NCBI RefSeq assembly: GCF_020524355.2
Contig: NZ_CP129019.1
Span: 3,782,001 to 3,846,000 of the forward strand
DNA from: Mesobacillus subterraneus
GTDB taxonomy: Bacteria > Bacillota > Bacilli > Bacillales > Cytobacillaceae
Reading direction: 5' to 3'
Length of the DNA stretch: 64,000 nucleotides
Each line of letters starts with the position of its first letter. Position 1 is the first letter of the stretch. Below are positions 1-56,985 of the stretch, piece by piece. The translations under genes were made by a program, and so were the position numbers. Under the pieces are notes generated by a model that was not told where the DNA came from, made no database searches, and was given only the letters and a program-made list of their open reading frames with translations.

Positions 1-738
1 GTTATCCAAACTACAAGAAATGAATTTAGGAGGTATGGTGAAGCATTTAGAGAACAATCCTTAAACAGAGAATACCAATCTATGAGTTTTGAAGATCGTT
101 TTTCCTTGCTTGTCGACCTGGAATATTCGCGTCGGAAAAGCAATCATCTAAATCGTTTAATTAAAAACGCCACATTTTCAGACTCAAAAGCCTGCATTGA
201 GGATATTGAATACCATGAGGATCGAAGACTTAAGAAGGAACTCATTTTGAAATTGGTAAAAGTACTTTTATATCAAGATCATCATAACATCATTTTAAAA
301 GGTCCCACTGGCTCCGGAAAAACCTACATGGCGTGTGCATTGGGTGTTTCCGCTTGCCGTCAGCAGTATAAAGTGAAGTATGTCCGGCTCCCAGAATTAC
401 TGGATGAACTGTCTCTGGCTAAATTGGCTGCCGACGGCAGCTATCGAAAGCTAATAAAAAAATACACAAAAACAGATGTACTCATTCTTGACGAGTGGTT
501 ACTTTCGGATCTTTCAAAAGATGAAGCAAATATCCTGTTGGAGATTACAGAAGCCCGGCACAAAACTGCTTCCACCATATATTGTTCCCAAATTGATCCG
601 AGCGGTTGGCATATCAAATTGGGTAACGGAACGATGGCAGAAGCAATTTTGGATCGCATTGTTCATGACTCTTACCAACTACTTTTGGATGGGGATATTT
701 CCATGCGGGAACGTCATGGATTGGGTATAGAGGTGTAG
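1..738 (+). pseudogene. istB: IS21-family helper ATPase IstB, frameshifted near its N-terminus
   Basis: AAA+ helper of IS21 transposition that assists the IstA transposase. Counting from the Met at 82, a Walker A motif GPTGSGKT lies near residues 74-81 and a Walker B-like LILDEW near 132-137, followed by the typical RHGLGIEV C-terminus. The N-terminal part typical of IstB (LSKLQEMNLGGMVK) reads in the frame starting at base 2, whereas the rest (AFREQ..EYQSMSFEDRF) reads in the frame starting at base 1. The two join if one G is restored in AAGCATTT at 41-48, so a one-base deletion or sequencing error is likely. Translation could restart at Met 82. The gene's 5' end is outside the window. Confidence 0.85.
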
Positions 739-739
739 G

Positions 740-1060
740 ATGAGGGAGTTATTAACGGTTCGGGAAGCCACCGAAATCTTACAATCTTGCGGAATAGAAT
801 GTCAGTTTCATGAAGTAAAGAAATGGGCTATAGAGGGGAAAATAAAAGCGAAGCATGAAAATAGAGTTTACAGAATCGGTCTTGATGATGTTTATGATTT
901 CCTCGAAATACTTTGGAAAGGCAGCTCATACGAGATTGGAATAAATGATGAAACAAAGATAAGTAGGCTCATTCAGGAGAACAAAGAGATTAAGGATAGA
1001 ATTATACAGCTAGAGAAGGAAAACAAAATACTAAGACAAAAGTTATCCTCGTTAAAATAA
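740..1060 (+). CDS. Small helix-turn-helix / coiled-coil protein carried by the IS21-like element
   Basis: 106 aa, starting one base after the istB stop, so almost certainly co-translated with it. The first 60 residues (LTVREATEILQSCG...VKKWAIEGKIKA...VYRIGLDDVYDFLE) resemble an excisionase/MerR-like winged HTH that reads a helix and a recognition strand. Residues 70-106 are a charged coiled coil (ISRLIQENKEIKDRIIQLEKE). No catalytic motif. Canonical IS21 elements carry only istA and istB, so this third gene may be a DNA-binding accessory protein or regulator; that role is inferred from position and fold only. Confidence 0.7.
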   Translation: MRELLTVREATEILQSCGIECQFHEVKKWAIEGKIKAKHENRVYRIGLDDVYDFLEILWKGSSYEIGINDETKISRLIQENKEIKDRIIQLEKENKILRQKLSSLK

Positions 1061-1078
1061 AGCTTTCAAAATTAATGG

Positions 1079-1114
1079 AATACCCCTGCCACTGGTCAAA
1101 TAGGCAGGGGTATT
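1079..1114 (+). terminator. Hairpin terminator after the IS21 gene cluster
   Basis: Perfect 12-bp inverted repeat AATACCCCTGCC / GGCAGGGGTATT with a 12-nt loop, 18 nt after the stop of the small HTH gene. The tail is only weakly T-rich (CTATTG). It probably ends the IS transcript. Confidence 0.6.
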
Positions 1115-1219
1115 CTATTGAAATGTGTATGGTAAAGAGCTTGGCATTTGGTGGTAAATTTTCTGTCATTGAGTGGTAAAAAAGATGGCACGGGTGGTAA
1201 ATTCTTTTGGCCGTAATCA

Positions 1220-1370
1220 CCGATCCGTTGCGTTCGGGGACATTCAGTACCGTCCGATGAGGATTTTCAACACGTTCATCATGAATGGCCACCAACATGT
1301 TTTCGACATCTCGAATGGCATCTTCGATTTTATAAATCGATTGGATTAGTTGTTCGTTCAGTATAAGCAT
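1220..1370 (-). pseudogene. 5' fragment of an ornithine cyclodeaminase / mu-crystallin family gene
   Basis: About 50 codons from an ATG at 1370, preceded by AAGGAGAG. The peptide begins MLILNEQLIQSIYKIEDAI and contains VENPHRTVLNVPERNGSV, the conserved substrate-binding start of the ornithine cyclodeaminase/mu-crystallin family (NAD-dependent imine/amino acid metabolism). Recognisable homology stops at NGSV, exactly where IS21-like terminal sequence begins, so the gene was cut by the insertion. The remainder is not in this window. Confidence 0.65.
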
Positions 1371-1397
1371 ATAGACTCTCTCCTTCTTATGTAAAAA

Positions 1398-1419
1398 CTC
1401 GGCCAATTATTTGGCCGAG
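1398..1419 (-). terminator. Hairpin terminator on the minus strand
   Basis: Perfect 9-bp stem CTCGGCCAA / TTGGCCGAG with a 4-nt loop, followed on the minus strand by TTTTT (1397-1393). It overlaps the stop codon of the transporter remnant and lies just before the ornithine cyclodeaminase start. Confidence 0.7.
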
Positions 1420-1494
1420 CTCATTTTACCAGTGATCACAGTTGGTTCAACGCGGCTTTTCACTGCCCAGATGGCAATCAGTGATACCACTAGA
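1407..1494 (-). pseudogene. C-terminal remnant of a membrane transporter
   Basis: The minus strand reads FLVVSLIAIWAVKSRVEP then TVITGKMSSAK followed by TAA at 1407-1409: a terminal transmembrane helix and short basic tail, typical of the end of an amino-acid permease or similar carrier. The 5' side is cut off by an inserted palindromic repeat at 1493. The family cannot be named from so little sequence. Its position upstream of the ornithine cyclodeaminase fragment suggests a former amino-acid uptake/catabolism operon. Confidence 0.45.
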
Positions 1495-1575
1495 AACACA
1501 GGGACGGTTCTGGCGTTTCATAAATTATTAAAATATTCATTTTACTGAAACAGAAGAACCGTCCCCACGTTTCCC
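1493..1575. repeat. REPIN-like palindromic repeat, family A, copy 1
   Basis: Imperfect palindrome of about 80 bp: CACAGGGACGGTTCTGGCG on one side and the inverse AAGAACCGTCCCCACGTTTC on the other, with an AT-rich centre. Near-identical copies occur at 5224, 7311 and 12178. Confidence 0.85.
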
Positions 1576-1746
1576 TTAATCAGGGTCTCCCCAATTTAAA
1601 CTTCTTATTAGTCGGCCGTGACCTTCGATTGCTTCAACCTCATTTATTTCATATGCTAGTTTTGTCCAATCCCCAGCATCAAATTTCGCTTCAATTGCCA
1701 GTGTAAGAGCATAAATAAGACGATCTTTATTTTCTGTATTTAGCAT
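1576..1746 (-). CDS. Small acidic protein of unknown function
   Basis: 56 aa from an ATG at 1746, with a good ribosome-binding site (GGGGAG, spacing 5). The sequence (MLNTENKDRLIYALTLAIEA ... WTKLAYEINEVEAIEGH ... SLNWGDPD) is a compact amphipathic, acidic protein without membrane segments. I do not recognise the family; the regular codon structure and ribosome-binding site argue that it is real. Its stop codon directly abuts a family A repeat. Confidence 0.6.
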   Translation of the reverse strand: MLNTENKDRLIYALTLAIEAKFDAGDWTKLAYEINEVEAIEGHGRLIRSLNWGDPD

Positions 1747-2018
1747 AATAACTCCCCGTTCTGAAAATAATAAATTTGGAAATTTCCAATTATTATCATA
1801 TCTAAGTTATTATCTAAAATCTATAACTTTCATATTGTAGCCTTCTGGCAGGTGATTGAAATGAAGAACCCTCCGAAAATATATTCTTTCCATTTTATGA
1901 AAAAATTGGCGGAAATAAAAAGGAAACGAAATTGACGGTGTCAAGTATAGATGTCACTGTCACTTTCGTTTCAAATTAGGACGTCGATAGAACGGGGTTC
2001 TTATTAACATCAGTATTG

Positions 2019-3377
2019 CTATTGATCAAGTGAATTATTATCATTTTTACTGTTTATAGTATTTATTTTATTTACAATTATTCTCGTAAGCGGAATGATA
2101 ATCACTAGGATTACCATTAGAATAATTACCATATATTCAAGCCAAAGGTTATTTGAATTTGAATTAAATAAATAAAAGACTATTACCACTATTGCAGTCA
2201 ACAAAAAAACTATTTTTTCGATTTGATTAATCTTTTCTTGCAATGAATACAAATTAAAACTACTTAAGCCGATTTTTAATTCCTTATAGAAGTAATAAAG
2301 AAAACAGGTCAATACCGCTATGATGATAGCAACGCGTTCGTCACCTTGAAACATACTTACATAAAGAGAATATATCTCCTTAAAAATATCCGTCATAAAT
2401 AATTCAATTTTTTCAATTTGGTCTACAAATAAAAATTGTCCTATTCCATAAAATAAAACCATTATTAAAAATAGTTTAATGATAAATTTATGAAATTGTT
2501 TCTTTTCTCTACGATTCATCTGAATATACTTTTCTTTAATAATTTTTAACTCTTCTCTCTTCAGGTATAGGGTATTTTTTAAATAAAGGTAAGAATAACT
2601 TTCTTTTTTGTCCATCCACTCTTGTTTCTCAATAAGAAAATCTTTATTTTCAATAACATACACCTTGTATAATTCACGAGCATTCTCAAGAATAAATGAA
2701 AAATTAAAAATCAAACCTAAAACTACTGGAACCACGAATATCATTTCAATTTCATTTCCATCTTTCACGTTCATTACAATTTGTGAAAATGAAAAACCAG
2801 CTAATAGAAGAAATAATAAAAACCAAAGCATAAATTTTCTTACAATACGTTGCTTATGCTCTACCGTACCTTCAGTAAAAAGCATTACCGAAAAAAAGAA
2901 ACAAAGCACCAATGTTCCAACCAACAACCAATTCTCTTCTGGAAATAGCTCAAATATAATATTAGAAAATAAGTAAAAATACAAAAGTGGTGCAGATATA
3001 GCCCAAGCAATTGCTAACATAACTTGTTTTAATAAATTTATTTTTATTATGACTAAGTAAATGTTAATAATGAAATTTGGAATATTCAATTTGGGATTCC
3101 CGATGTTTAATAATACGATAGGAAGCATGCAACCCCAAATAAATATATTCAAGTTAAGGAAAAGAGAAAAACTAAGAGCGATCTGCCCTTGTTTAAACAT
3201 CACGATATATAAACACATTAATCCGCCAACTGGTATAGAAATAATCATTATATAAAGCAAATGAAATAATATGGTTTTGATATAGGTTACAAATGTAGTT
3301 TTTCTCTGTTGAATATCCTTTAGTAACGTAGCAAAAAAGTAAGTTGTAAATAAAAATGGTTGTATTATATAATCCAA
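2019..3377 (-). CDS. Multi-spanning integral membrane protein of unknown function
   Basis: 452 aa with about ten hydrophobic segments grouped as an N-terminal set (roughly residues 35-230) and a C-terminal set (about 300-435), separated by a charged, Lys/Glu-rich cytoplasmic stretch (about 240-300: LIEKQEWMDKKES..., MNRREKKQFHK). No motif of a known transporter, kinase or protease is visible. Translation appears to start at TTG 3377 behind a weak AGGATG site. Very AT-rich, Ile/Lys/Asn-rich composition differs from neighbouring genes and suggests horizontal acquisition. Stand-alone; function unknown. Confidence 0.7.
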   Translation of the reverse strand: MDYIIQPFLFTTYFFATLLKDIQQRKTTFVTYIKTILFHLLYIMIISIPVGGLMCLYIVMFKQGQIALSFSLFLNLNIFIWGCMLPIVLLNIGNPKLNIPNFIINIYLVIIKINLLKQVMLAIAWAISAPLLYFYLFSNIIFELFPEENWLLVGTLVLCFFFSVMLFTEGTVEHKQRIVRKFMLWFLLFLLLAGFSFSQIVMNVKDGNEIEMIFVVPVVLGLIFNFSFILENARELYKVYVIENKDFLIEKQEWMDKKESYSYLYLKNTLYLKREELKIIKEKYIQMNRREKKQFHKFIIKLFLIMVLFYGIGQFLFVDQIEKIELFMTDIFKEIYSLYVSMFQGDERVAIIIAVLTCFLYYFYKELKIGLSSFNLYSLQEKINQIEKIVFLLTAIVVIVFYLFNSNSNNLWLEYMVIILMVILVIIIPLTRIIVNKINTINSKNDNNSLDQ

Positions 3378-3593
3378 TTCTTGTTCATCCTATCTCCGTC
3401 AAATTCCATTGCATTTAATTAGTAAGTATTCTATACACCATATCGGATATCCTTTACTTTTGAATGATAACTTAAGACACATTCAAATAATTTCCAAAAA
3501 CACTTTTGTCACTTTCCTAAAGCTAAACCTAAAGCCAACACCTTGTCTATCTCTTCGCTCCAACGAATTAAAGTGAATAACTCATCTTCCATG

Positions 3594-3668
3594 AGACACA
3601 GGGACGGTTCTTAAAGTGGACAATCGGAAGAAACAAAGGGGAAACAAAGGGACGGTTCCGGCGTTTCT
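3594..3668. repeat. Degenerate family A repeat, two half-units in tandem
   Basis: GACACAGGGACGGTTCTTAA at 3595 and ACAAAGGGACGGTTCCGGCG at 3644 are two copies of the left arm in the same orientation. The inverted right arm is missing, so this copy is rearranged. Confidence 0.6.
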
Positions 3669-3839
3669 CCAAAAACTTATAATAAAATTTTGTATCGGTA
3701 GATGGACCGCGAAATGATGGGAAACTGTCACATTCCTTGCGGAGCAGGGGAAAAGCCGGAGATTACTTCAAACGCTTACCTATTGCTAACTAATGTTTAG
3801 GGCCGCCGATTATTAAAAGTTACATTTGATTTATTAAGG

Positions 3840-3870
3840 CCTTGAGACTACGTCGTCTCAAGGGCTGTTT
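3840..3870 (+). terminator. Rho-independent terminator hairpin
   Basis: CCTTGAGAC / GTCTCAAGG stem (9 bp, 6-nt loop) followed by GCTGTTTTTTATTTT on the plus strand. No intact plus-strand gene lies upstream, so it probably served a lost gene. Confidence 0.6.
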
Positions 3871-4010
3871 TTTATTTTGTAATTTTAATGGAATGTTCAA
3901 CTTCACACTAATTAAAATAGCAAATTAATAGAATTAGATTAAATATCATTTTTCCACTTATAACCTATTTTGTAGTAAAATTAAATTACCAATAATAGGA
4001 GGGGACGAAG

Positions 4011-4496
4011 ATGCATCCATCACAAAAATCCGAAAGATTTGATTCTAAAGATATGCAGAATAGAGATAGTGAAAAAGAAACTATACCATCAGATGATGAT
4101 TTTAAAAATGAATTTGAAGAAAAAATGAAATCAGCGAAAGAGCATTTTTCAGATGTTAAGTTTTGGGAAAAGGTAAAAAAGTTTGGGAAAAAAGCAGGTT
4201 CTTCTTTGATATACATGGTACTGTTACTATATTTTACTCTTCAAAAACCAGACTTACCCTTATCAGCAAGAGCAACTATTATAGGAGCACTAGGGTATTT
4301 TATACTCCCTTTAGATTTAATCCCAGACTTAACACCCGGAGTAGGATTCACTGATGATCTTGGTGCTATTGGAGTTGCTTTATTCCAAATAGCGATTTTT
4401 ATAGATAAAGACGTTAAAGATAAAGCGAAAGCAAAATTAAGAGACTGGTTCGGGAATGATGTGGATACTTCGGAAATTGATGAAAGATTAGACTAA
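4011..4496 (+). CDS. YkvA-like DUF1232 membrane protein
   Basis: 161 aa. The last 100 residues contain the DUF1232/YkvA signature: a first membrane segment, then an LSARATIIGALGYFILPLD stretch with LIPDLTPGVGFTDDLGA and a second hydrophobic segment. The N-terminal 50 residues are a charged, Asp/Glu/Lys-rich extension absent from the shortest family members. Start ATG 4011 has AGGAGGGG seven bases upstream. Molecular function of the family is unknown. It precedes a membrane-anchored nuclease by 89 bp, separated by a weakly T-rich stretch, so they may or may not be co-transcribed. Confidence 0.85.
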   Translation: MHPSQKSERFDSKDMQNRDSEKETIPSDDDFKNEFEEKMKSAKEHFSDVKFWEKVKKFGKKAGSSLIYMVLLLYFTLQKPDLPLSARATIIGALGYFILPLDLIPDLTPGVGFTDDLGAIGVALFQIAIFIDKDVKDKAKAKLRDWFGNDVDTSEIDERLD

Positions 4497-4585
4497 AGTT
4501 TCTCAATTAACGGATACACATACTGTTTGCTAGGGTTATTAAGACTCTAGTTTTTTTTATAGAAATTGTATCAAGGGGGGATAAC

Positions 4586-5161
4586 ATGAAAAAAAGTTCC
4601 AAGAAACAAGATAAGCAGACGGAAAGTATAATGACACTTATATCAATGGCTGTCTTCGGATTAGTCTTTTATTTAACAGAATCGTTAATTACGGCAGCAA
4701 TAGCGTTATTGGTTATGATGTTAATTGCGGTTATATTTGTTCTCGTCCTTAATCAAAATAAACTAAAAAAATTAAGGGATTCCGGGATTTTCGAAATCGA
4801 TATGATGGATGGTACCCAATTCGAGCATTATTTAAGGGAATTGTATTTAGCATACGGATATAAAGCAACAGTAACGAGGGCCAGCGGTGATTTTGGAGCG
4901 GATCTTATACTAAATAAAAATGGCAGAAAAATAGTTGTCCAAGCCAAACGATATAAAAAGAATGTGGGAGTTAAAGCAGTACAGGAGGTTAAATCTGCAG
5001 AGCTTCATTACGGTGCTGACGAATCCTGGGTTGTGACAAACAGTTATTTCACCAAAGCAGCATACCAGCTTGCAAATTCAAATTCAGTAATTCTTATCGA
5101 TAGAGATCAATTAGTCAAAGACATAGTCTTTCTACAATCAAAATCGAATACAGCAATGTAA
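4586..5161 (+). CDS. Membrane-anchored Mrr-type restriction endonuclease domain protein
   Basis: 191 aa. Two transmembrane helices (about 14-32 and 34-56) are followed by a PD-(D/E)xK nuclease domain of the Mrr_cat type: GDFGADLIL (101-109, catalytic D106) and QAKRYK (119-124, Q119 and K121), then a conserved TNSYFTKAA segment. The Q in place of E is usual for this family. Strong site AAGGGGGG precedes ATG 4586. Mrr-like proteins cleave modified or foreign DNA; membrane-tethered forms are common in Firmicutes but their role is unclear. No methylase accompanies it. Confidence 0.88.
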   Translation: MKKSSKKQDKQTESIMTLISMAVFGLVFYLTESLITAAIALLVMMLIAVIFVLVLNQNKLKKLRDSGIFEIDMMDGTQFEHYLRELYLAYGYKATVTRASGDFGADLILNKNGRKIVVQAKRYKKNVGVKAVQEVKSAELHYGADESWVVTNSYFTKAAYQLANSNSVILIDRDQLVKDIVFLQSKSNTAM

Positions 5162-8829: not shown

Positions 8830-8854
8830 ATTGCTGTTATTTTTGAAAATAAAA

Positions 8855-8879
8855 AAACAGACCCTTTTGGAGTCTGTTT
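8855..8879 (-). terminator. Terminator of the cold-shock gene
   Basis: AAACAGAC / GTCTGTTT stem with a run of T on the minus strand, 19 bp past the csp stop codon. Confidence 0.85.
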
Positions 8880-8897
8880 CGGTATGCTATATCAAAA

Positions 8898-9098
8898 TTA
8901 AGCTTTTTGAACGTTAGCAGCTTGAGGTCCACGTGCACCTTGCTCAACGTCGAAAGTAACTTTTTGACCTTCGTCTAATGATTTGAAGCCTTCAGATTGG
9001 ATTGCAGAGAAATGAACGAATACATCTTCTCCACCTTCGCGCTCGATGAATCCGAAACCTTTTTCTGCGTTAAACCATTTAACTGTACCTTGTTCCAT
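8898..9098 (-). CDS. Cold-shock protein, CspA/CspB family
   Basis: 66 aa single cold-shock domain with both RNA-binding motifs: KGFGFIE (RNP1) and DVFVHFSAI (RNP2), plus GPQAANV near the C-terminus. An OB-fold RNA chaperone that melts secondary structure in mRNA at low temperature and in stationary phase. Full family length. AGGAGG sits 8 bases before ATG 9098, and the gene has a long structured leader and its own terminator, so it is monocistronic. Confidence 0.97.
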
Positions 9099-9233
9099 GT
9101 TTGTTGCCTCCTAGTGCTAATGCACATTGTATTACTATCCTTGCCCAAAGTGATCATTAGAACGAAGAGTCGAACTTTACACCGAACAAAAATAATTCTA
9201 CCTAAGAATAACAAGATTCAGGAAAAATTGCAA
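9099..9233 (-). promoter_or_regulatory. Cold-shock gene promoter and 5' leader
   Basis: On the minus strand TTGCAA (9233-9228), 17-bp spacer, TATTCT (9210-9205) forms a sigma-A-type promoter. The inferred transcript start near 9198 leaves a leader of about 100 nt before the ATG, as is usual for csp genes, whose leaders act as thermosensors. The thermosensing role is inferred. Confidence 0.6.
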
Positions 9234-9292
9234 GGGACTTTAGCAGGATGAGAACGTTACGGTTCAACTGCGATGAAAGTCGATCACAATGG

Positions 9293-9458: not shown

Positions 9459-9733
9459 GTATATAATATATTGTATCCCTAAAACAATGAAAGCCCTACC
9501 TCTCTTTCATCCTTACGGCTCCTAGTCCGTGCCAGTGTGAATCAGGATTGCAAAAATCAAGTGACTATTTTAACGAGTTTTTGATGAAACTTCAAACGTT
9601 CGTAAAGGAAATTCAAGTAATAAAAATGGATTAGATTGTAGAAAAAAACAAAAGAGGTTCATGGTCTACAGGTGAGTTGGAGAAGTTGAATGTCTTGGAA
9701 AAGAATATTTTCGGGAAATGTATGAAAGAAACC
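9459..9733. other. Intergenic stretch without recognised gene
   Basis: 275 bp between the family A repeat and the CarD-like gene, with short AT-rich stretches. I see no ORF, RNA or repeat that I can support. Confidence 0.35.
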
Positions 9734-20722: not shown

Positions 20723-21155
20723 CTATTTTTCTATTTCAACTAAATAATCCTTTAATCGCTCTTTTGAATCAGAGGAAAGTGGCGCAGATTTTCTAGTCTG
20801 GTCGTCTATTTGCACGATGAGACGGTATCTGCCACTGCAGCAATCTTGCCATTTTGATAGATTCCTTGAAACAAAGAGAAGGAACTGTTTCCAATTCTTG
20901 TAATGGCACTGCCAATCTCAACTGTTCCGGGCCACCGTATTTCAGATATTAAGTCCAGCTTTAGACTCTTGCTATGACAAATGAGGCGTTTTCAGCATGA
21001 AGCTGCTCCTTTGCATAGAGGAGCTCCGTTCTTCCCGTTTCCAGGAAGGTTGAAAAAAGTGCGTTATTTACATGTACCTGACGATCCGTATCTGCATACC
21101 TGATCTTGTCATATGTCTTTAATGGGAAATCTTCATATTTCGGTCTTATCTGCAT
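20723..21155 (-). pseudogene. Decayed second copy of the acyl-CoA thioesterase at 40.7 kb
   Basis: Closely similar to 40717-41142, including the upstream GGAGGAATGAGAGTG leader and MQIRPKYEDFPLKTYDKIRY. The catalytic-region DTDRQGHVNNA has become DTDRQVHVNNA, a two-base insertion near 20965 (AGACTCTTGC) shifts the frame, and a further change near 20820 breaks it again. Scattered substitutions on top of indels indicate real decay. The tandem array at 21327 begins about 170 bp upstream of its start. Confidence 0.85.
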
Positions 21156-21326
21156 CACTCTCATTCCTCCTGCCAATATGCTTCTAGAATTATTTCCTTC
21201 TAGATACATTTTTCAACACCTGAAACAACAAACCCTTCTTCAACATACCTTTCCTACATTTCATCAATTTAGGCTCTCTCCATTTTTTAGCTGTTCACCA
21301 GCACTAATGTTAGCATTAGTACTTTC

Positions 21327-22092
21327 TTGACAGCTTTGTGCTCCGCACCCTGAAACCTGTCACAATAACTACGTTTTCTTGACAGCTTTGGGCTCTACAA
21401 CCTGAGATCTGTCACAATAATTACGTTTTCTTGACAGCTTTGTGCTCTACAACCTGAGATCTGTCACAATAATTACGTTTTCTTGACAGCTTTGGGCTCC
21501 GCAACCTGAAACCTGTCACAATAACTACGTTTTCTTGACAGCTTTTAGCTCCGTAACCTGAAACCTGTCACAATAACTGCTTTTTCTTGACAGCTTTGGG
21601 CTCCGCACCCTGAAACCTGTCACAATAACTACGTTTTCTTGACAGCTTTGAGCTCCGCAACCTGAAACCTGTCACAATAACTGCTTTTTCTTGACAGCTT
21701 TGGGCTCCGCACCTGAAACCTGTCACAATAACTACGTTTTCTTGAAAGCTTTGAGCTCCGCACCCTGAAACCTGTCACAATAACTACGTTTTCTTGACAG
21801 CTTTGAGCTCCGCACCCTGAAACCTGTCACAATAACTGCTTTTTCTTGACAGCTTTGGGCTCTACAACCTGAAACCTGTCACAATAACTACGTTTTCTTG
21901 ACAGCTTTGAGCTCTACAACCTGAAACCTGTCACAATAACTACGTTTTCTTGACAGCTTTGGGCTCCGCACCCTGAAAGCTGTCACAATAACTACGTTTT
22001 CTTGACAGCTTTGAGCTCCGCACCCTGAAACCTGTCACAATAACTACGTTTTCTTGACAGCTTTGAGCTCCGCAACCTGAAAGCTGTCACAT
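21327..22092. repeat. Tandem array of fifteen 52-bp palindromic units
   Basis: Units start at 21327, 21379, 21431, 21483, 21535, 21587, 21639, 21691, 21742, 21794, 21846, 21898, 21950, 22002 and 22054; one unit is 51 bp by a single deletion and the last is partial. Each reads TTGACAGCTTTGGGCTCCGC... ACCCTGAAACCTGTCACAAT and contains an imperfect 35-bp palindrome with arms TGACAGCTTT.GGG / CCC.GAAACCTGTCA. Units differ by a few substitutions, some of which preserve pairing (AAAGCTGTCA near 21976 and 22080). No ORF spans it. Confidence 0.95.
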
Positions 22093-22172
22093 AGACAGTG
22101 GGACGGATCGGCTGTCTCATTTTTTTACATATTTTTACTATACATGAGACTTAAGAACCGTCCCCATGTAGC
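22091..22172. repeat. Family A repeat fused to the end of the 52-bp array
   Basis: GACAGTGGGACGGATCGGCT and the inverse CTTAAGAACCGTCCCCATGT around an AT-rich centre, 80 bp long; it begins inside the last array unit. Confidence 0.7.
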
Positions 22173-22431: not shown

Positions 22432-23241
22432 TTACATATTCTTGCTTTGCAGAAGAAGTTGCGACTTTCCGGAACGCTCCCACTCTTCCACTGTTTCATA
22501 TGCTTTTTCAGGAGTATACCCCTTCCCTACCAGGACTCCCATTAGAATGAATTCTTGAAGAATATGCGTAGCGTTGATTCCCCTTTTAACGTCCTCTAAT
22601 CCTTCCTGCACTAAATATTCAGTGTGCTGTACCCATTGATCTGGAGTTTTGCCAAAAACAATCGTATTTCCATTTCCGTTCGCTCCACCTTCACTGGCCA
22701 TTGCATCGGCTTTGGTTACGTGGACTGTCCCGAATGGATGGTTAGGTGGCGCATAGATGGAGTAGAGCTTTAACGGAGTATTACCGGTATTGGTCACATT
22801 ATGCCATGTTCCGGCTGGAATCATGATCGCAGAATCGTCAACGACTGGACTTTGGAAGGTGAGGTTATCCTTGCGCTTGCCCATCTGAACAATCCCCTGA
22901 CCTTGTTCGATCCGCAAAAATTGATCAACATCAGGATGGACTTCCAAACCGATATCATCGCCAACCTCGATGCTCATTAATGTGACCTGTAAATGTGTTC
23001 CTGTCCATAAAGCCGTACGATACGTGTTATTTTGCTTCGTTGCTTCATTGATATTTACCACATATGGATTGGGTCCATAATCCGCTAAAGGAATCATTCC
23101 ATTGCCGTTCGGATAACGGAAAGCATGAAAACCGTTGACCTGCTGCGCTCCATAAGGATAAGCCCATTGACCTGACTGTCTGCCATTGTAATTATTCGGT
23201 CCATAATATTGATTAAAATAACCATTTGGAACATAGTACAT
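22432..23241 (-). CDS. Cupin-domain protein with Asn/Tyr/Gly-rich N-terminus
   Basis: 269 aa from ATG 23241 (GGGAAGGG nine bases upstream). The first 50 residues are Tyr/Asn/Gly-rich and low-complexity (YFNQYYGPNNYNGRQ), as in spore-coat-like proteins. The cupin barrel follows: GDDIGLEVHPDVDQFLRIEQGQGIVQMG (conserved metal-ligand motif 1, HPDxDQFLRIEQG) and PAGTWHNVTNTGNTPLKLYS (motif 2). The C-terminal 80 residues are helical. Probably a metal-binding single-domain cupin; its coat association is only suggested by composition. Confidence 0.88.
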   Translation of the reverse strand: MYYVPNGYFNQYYGPNNYNGRQSGQWAYPYGAQQVNGFHAFRYPNGNGMIPLADYGPNPYVVNINEATKQNNTYRTALWTGTHLQVTLMSIEVGDDIGLEVHPDVDQFLRIEQGQGIVQMGKRKDNLTFQSPVVDDSAIMIPAGTWHNVTNTGNTPLKLYSIYAPPNHPFGTVHVTKADAMASEGGANGNGNTIVFGKTPDQWVQHTEYLVQEGLEDVKRGINATHILQEFILMGVLVGKGYTPEKAYETVEEWERSGKSQLLLQSKNM

Positions 23242-23449
23242 TTTTTTCAATCCCTTCCCAGTTCATCACAATATCCTATGCGATTTTTTTGGGAATGTAC
23301 TTAACAGAGAAGCAGTAGACACTGGGCAGTGTTGCTCCCCCTCCTAACTGCGTAAAGAAAACGTGAAGAAGCTCGGTGGTTCAGTAATTATCATTACCGC
23401 TGCTTGATATCCATATATATAGTGTAAAAGCTGACGGGAGTAGAAATCA

Positions 23450-40716: not shown

Positions 40717-41142
40717 TTATTGAATTTCAACTAAATATTGTCTTAATCGCTCTTTTGTTTCAGAGGAAAGCGGCGCCGATTTCCTCGTTTCCTCATCCAT
40801 TTGCACGATGACGGTTTCTGCCACTGCAGCAAGCTTGCCATTTTGATAGATTCCTTGAAATAAAGAAAAGGAGCTGTTGCCAACTCTTGTAATGGCACTG
40901 CCAATTTCCACTGTCCCGGGCCATCGTATTTCAGAAAGCAAGTCCAGCTTCAGACTTGCTATGACAAATGCCGCGTTTTCAGCATGCAGCGGCTCCTTTG
41001 CATAGAGAAGCTCCGTTCTTCCCGTTTCCAGGAAGGTTGAAAACAGCGCATTATTAACATGTCCCTGACGATCCGTATCTGCATACCTGATCTTGTCATA
41101 TGCCTTTAATGGAAAATCTTCATATTCCGGTTTCATTTGCAT
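40717..41142 (-). CDS. Acyl-CoA thioesterase (4-HBT fold, YbgC-like)
   Basis: 141 aa from ATG 41142 (or 41136); GAGGGTG lies upstream. Hotdog-fold motif IRYADTDRQGHVNNALFSTFL with the catalytic Asp in DTDRQGHVNNA. Hydrolyses acyl-CoA thioesters. A decayed duplicate lies at 20723-21155; the flanking sequence is also partly duplicated. Confidence 0.9.
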   Translation of the reverse strand: MQMKPEYEDFPLKAYDKIRYADTDRQGHVNNALFSTFLETGRTELLYAKEPLHAENAAFVIASLKLDLLSEIRWPGTVEIGSAITRVGNSSFSLFQGIYQNGKLAAVAETVIVQMDEETRKSAPLSSETKERLRQYLVEIQ

Positions 41143-41308
41143 CACCCTCATTCCACCTGTTTCCATGCTTTAGAGTCATTTCCGATAGATACATTGTTCA
41201 ACACCTTGAGCAATAAATCCTTCTTCAACAAACCTTTACTACATTCTTAAGCCGTTCAGTTTTGAGGTGCATAATGTATTTGCTCTTTAATTTATTTTAA
41301 CAATTTTA

Positions 41309-52865: not shown

Positions 52866-53177
52866 GTGAGATGGCACACCTTATCTAGTCACATTCTTTC
52901 ATCCATAGAAAAAAGTACAGGAAATGGAGTTATTTTAAGCCACGAGCAATTTGTTACGAATACTTACCGTCAAGCTTATAACTATGTAAATCCAATTGAC
53001 CCTCAGGCTGCCTTGATCATTCAGGACTTTTTAAGGGAACAAATAGATGAAGAAGCACAAGCTAAAACAATTATTGATCGTCTTAAACTTACAGGGAATA
53101 ATCCTTCCGCTCTTTTACTAATAGATCAAGAATTAGGAACAAGAATAAATGCAGCAACTCCCCCGGCAGCGGGTTGA
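52866..53177 (+). pseudogene. C-terminal fragment of a ferritin-like protein
   Basis: 103 aa from GTG 52866 without a ribosome-binding site. SHEQFVTNTYRQAYNYVNPI and FLREQIDEEAQAKTIIDRLK with a LLLIDQELG end match the last two helices of bacterial ferritin (EQxxEExxAKxIxxxL...DxEL). The N-terminal helices with the first half of the ferroxidase site are missing. Either a remnant or a mis-started gene; the upstream 300 bp do not encode the rest. Confidence 0.5.
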
Positions 53178-56279: not shown

Positions 56280-56985
56280 GGTAAGGGCACCTTTTCCGCC
56301 TAACCGTACCCTTATAAGAGCTTCGGCCTCCACATAAGGATACAATTTCCGCCTAATCGTACCCTTATAAGAGCTTCTCCCTCCACATAAGGATACAATT
56401 TCCGCCTAATCGTATCCTTATAAGAGCTTCTGCCTCCACATAAGGATACAATTTCCGCCTAACCGTACCCTTATAAGAGCTTCTCCCTTCGCATAAGGAT
56501 ACAATTTCCGCCTAATCGTACCCTTATAAGAGCTTCTCCCTCCACATAAGGATACAATTTCCGCCTAATCGTACCCTTATAAGAGCTTCGGCCTCCACAT
56601 AAGGATACAATTTCCGCCTAATCGTACCCTTATAAGAGCTTCTCCCCCCACATAAGGATACAATTTCCGCCTAATCGTACCCTTATAAGAGCTTCTCCCT
56701 TCGCATAAGGATACAATTTCCGCCTAATCGTACCCTTATAAGAGCTTCGGCCTCCACATAAGGATACAATTTCCGCCTAATCGTACCCTTATAAGAGCTT
56801 CTCCCCCCACATAAGGATACAATTTCCGCCTAATCGTACCCTTATAAGAGCTTCTCCCTCCACATAAGGATACAATTTCCGCCTAATCGTATCCTTATAA
56901 GAGCTTCTCCCTTCGCATAAGGATACAATTTCCGCCTAATCGTACCCTTATAAGAGCTTCTCCCTTCACATAAGGATACAATTTC
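56280..56985. repeat. Tandem array of thirteen 53-bp palindromic units
   Basis: Unit TTATAAGAGCTTCTCCCTCC, ACATAAGGATACAATTTCCG, CCTAATCGTACCC; starts at 56312, 56365, 56418, 56471, 56524, 56577, 56630, 56683, 56736, 56789, 56842, 56895 and 56948. Internal inverted repeat ATAAGGATAC / GTA(C/T)CCTTAT frames an AATTTCCGCCTAATC loop. Variation is confined to a few positions (CTTCGG/CTTCTC, TCCACA/TTCGCA/CCCACA). It lies between convergent genes. Confidence 0.95.

Follow-up and report, generated by a model that had tools for sequence, protein, structure and literature searches.

The window, a stretch of 64,000 nucleotides of the Mesobacillus subterraneus chromosome, contains an intergenic tandem array of 52 bp units that we read, tentatively and with somewhat less than even confidence, as a phased, replication-oriented array of putative protein-binding sites. 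As far as the available portion of PMC8161180 (Subirana and Messeguer 2021) describes it, the array is a member of a published and unexplained class of 52-nt tandem repeats of Bacillus.

Extent and flanks of the array

Tandem Repeats Finder places the array at 21323-22091 (period 52, 14.8 copies, 92% matches, score 1258), and its result together with splitting at the repeat start confirms the 15 units counted in an earlier note on this DNA, with starts from 21327 to 22054 and one unit of 51 bp. The array, its half-sites and its neighbours are:

20961..21209, minus strand, decayed second copy of a thioesterase-like ORF (PF13279), left flank of the array
21327..22091, minus strand, 52 bp array of 15 units (13 of 52 bp, one of 51 bp at 21691, the last of 38 bp)
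21327..21337, first half-site, TTGACAGCTTT on the plus strand, block AAAGCTGTCAAG on the minus strand, every 52 bp
21353..21368, second, inverted half-site, AAACCTGTCACAATAA on the plus strand, every 52 bp, 26 bp from the first half-site
22432..23250, minus strand, cupin gene (PF07883), right flank of the array

Read on the minus strand, the window unit is AAAGCTGTCAAGAAA - N5 - GTTATTGTGACAGGTTT - N15. The array is not protein-coding, in agreement with the earlier note: there is no ORF of at least 60 aa inside 21350-22091, and a period of 52 is not a multiple of three. A CRISPR array, already disfavoured in the earlier note, can likewise be rejected, the 15 units being alike in all 52 columns (mean identity 93%) and thus without unique spacers. 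The thioesterase-like remnant on the left is 84.7% identical in nucleotide sequence to a longer copy at 40717-41166 (588 columns), while the cupin protein on the right has a match in 20 of the 21 genomes of the genus, in some of them to a paralogue only.

A terminator-like hairpin directly follows the array (22097-22121 / 22140-22170 area), with two such sites in the region against 1.0 in shuffled sequences, and the same area holds GGGACGG / CCGTCCC motifs that recur next to the cupin gene of two relatives (L267, L269). At gathering scores Rfam gives no match at the array; its only matches in the window are BsrC (9474-9560, plus strand) and the cspA thermoregulator (8850-9274, minus strand). 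A plasmid collection gave a single weak match, inside a cupin gene.

Unit anatomy

Comparison of the 19 arrays of this family in the genome (period 52, at least 2.5 copies, oriented alike) resolves each unit into two conserved blocks of 15 and 17 bp that carry the inverted half-sites, AAAGCTGTCAAGAAA at positions 1-15 and about GTTATTGTGACAGGTTT at 21-37. Between the blocks lie two spacers, of variable sequence but with fixed lengths of 5 bp and 15 bp. This redraws the unit proposed earlier, a 35 bp palindrome followed by a 17 bp linker: the AT-rich 'linker' lies within the conserved 37 bp core, and the centre of the supposed palindrome is the variable part of the unit. Loci differ from one another at 63% of spacer positions and 9% of block positions, a comparison that favours block conservation because the arrays were picked by block likeness (at most 7 mismatches in 23 positions) and a consensus period of 52.

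The per-unit spacing counts are independent of that selection. Measured from start to start, the distance between half-sites in one direction is 26 bp in 241 of 243 cases; in the opposite direction it is 26 bp in 236 of 248, 25 bp in 8 and 27 bp in 4. The units themselves follow one another at 52 bp in 229 of 245 cases (51 bp in 8, 53 bp in 4, about two units in 4). No fixed change of spacer length was seen in the 19 loci, against about 34 expected under a rough model with an indel-to-substitution ratio of 638 to 4864 taken from aligned intergenic DNA, a star tree and JC distances. Spacer length is held while spacer sequence drifts, near to saturation.

Dispersal and sister families

The first two units of the window array give 188 matches on both strands of the 4.79 Mb genome, which fall, among the matches listed, in at least 22 separate places. 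Within the genus the unit is matched in 17 of 21 genomes, this one included; the family is thus dispensable, as four genomes have no match, one of these being only 66% complete. Among the 172 other genomes searched in the taxonomic family, at most four candidates were scored per genome and no match to the unit was obtained. Named records with the unit pattern are Mesobacillus boroniphilus, M. selenatarsenatis, several Bacillus sp. ISL strains, one Cytobacillus oceanisediminis strain and one titled Chryseobacterium. In the contigs titled Chryseobacterium sp. ISL-80 (L118, L126) the unit is present with flanks 83-96% identical to the genome of the window, and the record title is probably wrong.

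The array is one of many. A survey of 864 kb, consisting of the window and 40 almost evenly spaced 20 kb stretches (period at least 15, at least 2.5 copies), holds 55 arrays, 24 with a period of 52-53 and 16 with a period of 20-21, so that the 52 bp class, in print but unexplained, is abundant here. A second of these arrays lies in the window itself:

56293..56985, plus strand, second array, period 53, 13.1 copies, arms TACCCTTAT / ATAAGGATA, same plan as the 52 bp array

Its sequence is unrelated to the 52 bp unit and represents a dispersed family of its own; the core of this family, GTACCCT, also occurs in the B. indicus unit 7_52_18 of the part of PMC8161180 available. The genome has several 52/53 bp families with different arms, and a constant half-site spacing across them was not found. 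Arrays of period 20-21 are dispersed as well (e.g. at 490965, 3601519 and 4093281), several of them with the core TTTATAGCGAAAAT. The genes that flank arrays of the window's 52 bp family present no common theme: the 20 neighbours at 14 loci encode, among others, diverse enzymes, a permease and proteins of the EAL, GGDEF and NERD kinds, and one has no Pfam hit.

Orthologous sites in related species

Relatives have arrays at the places of arrays of this genome in 62 pairs, one of which is the genome with itself and some of which come from loci fetched twice; the pairs were drawn solely from loci fetched for holding the unit and form a presence-only sample. A genuine partner at both flanks was found for 13 of the 19 loci. 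At 340147 and 3164555 the partner is weak, with blocks of the sole both-flank partner 34% and 25% different, and at the window locus the only both-flank partner (L266) is this genome itself. Mean differences at orthologous loci are 13% in flanks, 36% in spacers and 6% in blocks, subject to the selection of arrays that favours block conservation. Orientation agrees in 60 of the 62 pairs and is opposite in two. Copy number, which the earlier note had suggested counting between strains, differs freely between relatives at these sites.

Synteny is broken at the window's own locus. Of the 17 best cupin loci (L266-L282, this genome's among them), 5 have an array close to the cupin gene, and two relatives that lack one at this site (L267, L269) have a ferritin-like gene (PF00210) in its place. 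In L271/L141 the array is followed directly by residues 112-169 only of this ferritin-like gene, and in L086 and L103 an array lies beside the thioesterase-like region. A ferritin-like gene is also present as a fragment elsewhere in the window (52932-53174, residues 89-169); its intact relative, of 169 aa, is found at the array site in L269.

The principal alternative, and to our minds quite a possible one, is a satellite born of replication, in which slippage or unequal crossing-over makes and resizes the arrays and the 52 bp size would come from the copying machinery with no protein needed. Free variation in copy number, spacers that change faster than flanks, and the coincidence of array sites at the cupin locus with gene remnants and broken synteny all agree with such an origin; blocks that change less than flanks at orthologous loci, and a length that stays fixed despite near-saturated spacers, do not. 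The strictly neutral minisatellite, with a neutral rate everywhere and a drifting length, is disfavoured by the holding of block sequence and length while spacers drift. The earlier note had reserved that verdict for a unit absent from all other strains and expanding only by slippage with random substitutions, and the recurrence of the unit in the genus, at orthologous sites and with blocks more constant than flanks, speaks otherwise.

Replication polarity

In this genome dnaA is at 4.411 Mb and the GC skew reverses somewhere between 1.70 and 1.92 Mb; we set the terminus at 1.81 Mb, and opposite dnaA in two complete relatives (G003 and G009). Of the 19 family arrays, 17 have their AAAGCTGTCAAG strand running with the fork. 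When matches were grouped by hand into places in the three genomes (this genome being G000), that strand did so in 19 of 22 places here, among the matches listed, and in 17 of 19 (G009) and 20 of 24 (G003) places in the relatives, which are partly ancestral loci shared with this genome.

The same polarity is seen in base composition. The leading strand has a purine excess in 37 of 38 arrays of this genome (period 51-53, at least 4 copies; mean 0.232), compared with 145 of 223 non-array intergenic stretches of at least 300 bp (mean 0.031, sd 0.068; Fisher p = 1.2e-5). Of these arrays, 21 come from the window and the even sample, all with a purine-rich leading strand (21/21), and 17 from loci fetched by likeness, among which is the sole exception (array 2872775). 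With gene directions taken from a simple purpose-made gene caller, the polarity is kept between convergent genes (11/11) and between genes opposing the fork (4/4), and therefore follows replication and not transcription. It is not clear in the 20-21 bp arrays (8/12). Three genomes of other genera (1.2 Mb) contributed six arrays of period 51-53, in which the leading strand, assigned by local skew, is G-rich in all six and purine-rich in five.

The octamer GAGAAGGG, which we take to be the SRS octamer or SpoIIIE site, has no exact occurrence in the 38 arrays, and AGCGG, presumably the Chi sequence of B. subtilis, is present in 5 of the 38, about the background rate. With one mismatch allowed, the leading strand carries 58 GAGAAGGG-like sites and the lagging strand 1, compared with 36 (sd 5) in shuffled arrays, and the arrays may bear a loose likeness to this octamer. 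Neither a literature search nor the searched text of PMC8161180 yielded a report of fork polarity in 52-nt arrays.

The polarity may be functional, or it may come from orientation-dependent stability or strand-biased mutation. A satellite origin would draw on the latter two, with only one orientation to the fork being stable or with biased mutation writing the purine excess, and a polarity that tracks replication suits it; the excess itself, however, greatly exceeds what the rest of the intergenic DNA shows.

Inverted symmetry and pairing

By itself, the window consensus shows a modest inverted symmetry (p = 0.047, with 300 mononucleotide shuffles as the control). Among the arrays of period 51-53 in the fetched parts of the genome, 20 of 42 reach p <= 0.05 where about 2 would be expected, and so do 15 of the 27 published 52-nt consensus units from the available part of PMC8161180. 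GACA occurs with TGTC in 6 of these 27 units (0.44 expected) and ATGA with TCAT in 8 (0.57 expected).

Substitutions that keep the pairing had been pointed out earlier, with covariation on aligned units as the proposed check. One pair is indeed restored in 2 of the 15 units, but no stem pair within the window array is changed on both sides, and compensatory change is almost absent more widely: the ten stem pairs of 110 distinct consensus units give 1100 cells, of which 1 has a two-sided change that still pairs, 3 have one-sided changes and 115 do not pair. At one stem position a G-G mismatch stands in 94 of the 110 units, which makes up 94 of the 115 non-pairing cells. The near-absent covariation and this standing mismatch imply that sequence rather than pairing is kept, and they favour recognition of sequence at the DNA level over a selected hairpin in RNA.

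A transcribed array whose units serve as RNA hairpins (small RNAs, sponges or 3' UTR elements), a possibility raised in the portion of PMC8161180 available, is in our view improbable. The same portion reports transcription of 52-nt arrays in B. coagulans, and single units fold slightly better than shuffled ones (z -1.2 to -2.1). Against this, predicted promoters in the array region are not in excess (3, with 2.1 in shuffles), the array has no Rfam match, and an RNA role is disfavoured by the near-absent covariation, by the standing G-G mismatch and by an orientation set by the fork rather than by the gene, even where genes converge on the array or oppose the fork.

A putative lattice of binding sites

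Our preferred explanation remains the phased array of putative protein-binding sites, and the earlier proposal that a protein-binding or structural array fits best is upheld as the best reading, with binding at the sites putative. Each 52 bp period, corresponding to five helical turns, would present two inverted half-sites of about AAASCTGTCA, 26 bp apart and with an AT-rich inner side, to which a sequence-specific protein would bind repeatedly on a fixed lattice. The earlier suggestion that all palindromes would lie on one face of the helix is compatible with these data. Such a lattice would extend over about 0.2-1.3 kb at roughly two dozen intergenic sites, and the covered arrays, set along the replication fork, could act as a nucleoid or chromosome-organising mark. 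We infer the binding of a protein, its cooperativity and any role in chromosome organisation. As half-sites and within-unit spacing differ between families, one protein cannot serve them all, and the other 52/53 bp families would be served by other specificities on the same lattice.

It is a more doubtful proposition, which we consider unlikely, that all 52/53 bp arrays belong to one replication-polarised chromosome-architecture system of Bacillaceae, in which phased inverted-site lattices mark fork direction. If this were true, selection would act on the period and strand of the arrays and not on one sequence, and the fork marks would serve segregation, loop loading or the handling of replication-transcription conflicts. 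The fork polarity, the slowly changing blocks and the strict 26 bp lattice make it testable which protein binds and what the inversion or removal of an array would do.

Comparison with known systems

The arrays resemble REP, BIME and REPIN elements in being dispersed, extragenic and palindromic, and differ from them in having 52 bp units in long head-to-tail arrays of fixed period. Spread of many such copies by a RAYT (Y1_Tnp) transposase, possibly a past one since lost, is very improbable because the transposase is missing, a PF01797 search that matched in 5 of 14 genomes having found no Y1_Tnp in this genome (188 unit matches) or in G017 (156) and having found it in two genomes with no unit match (G012, G019). 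MIRU-VNTR minisatellites of mycobacteria likewise consist of tandem units some tens of bases long, repeated in variable copy number at many intergenic sites; the 52 bp arrays are set apart from them by one fixed period over unrelated families, by inverted half-sites and by fork polarity. Polar motifs of the SRS/KOPS type share the strand bias along replichores, and here the tandem arrangement and the absent GAGAAGGG make the difference.

The closest likeness is to the class of Subirana and Messeguer (PMC8161180), and the view of the earlier note, to which no described element with this unit was known, is not supported. The available part of that paper describes 52-nt and 20-21-nt tandem repeats of Bacillus of constant size and variable sequence, and lists for B. 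alkalitelluris the signal AAAGCTGTC, a motif of the window unit. It also reports B. selenatarsenatis and B. boroniphilus as rich in 52-nt arrays, the former with 82 arrays, which B. boroniphilus and B. subterraneus have in common with it. The class is characterised by a period of 51-53 with at least 4 units, several families of the same period in one genome, and non-coding sequence; the window array has a period of 52, 14.8 copies and no coding function, its genome holds several families of this period and 20-21-nt arrays beside them, and short signals are shared. Strand, replication and the conservation of blocks and spacers at orthologous sites are not treated in the available text. To the published class our analysis adds the absence of a RAYT match in this genome, the near-absence of compensatory change, the block and spacer anatomy of the unit, its orthologous sites and its polarity with respect to the replication fork.
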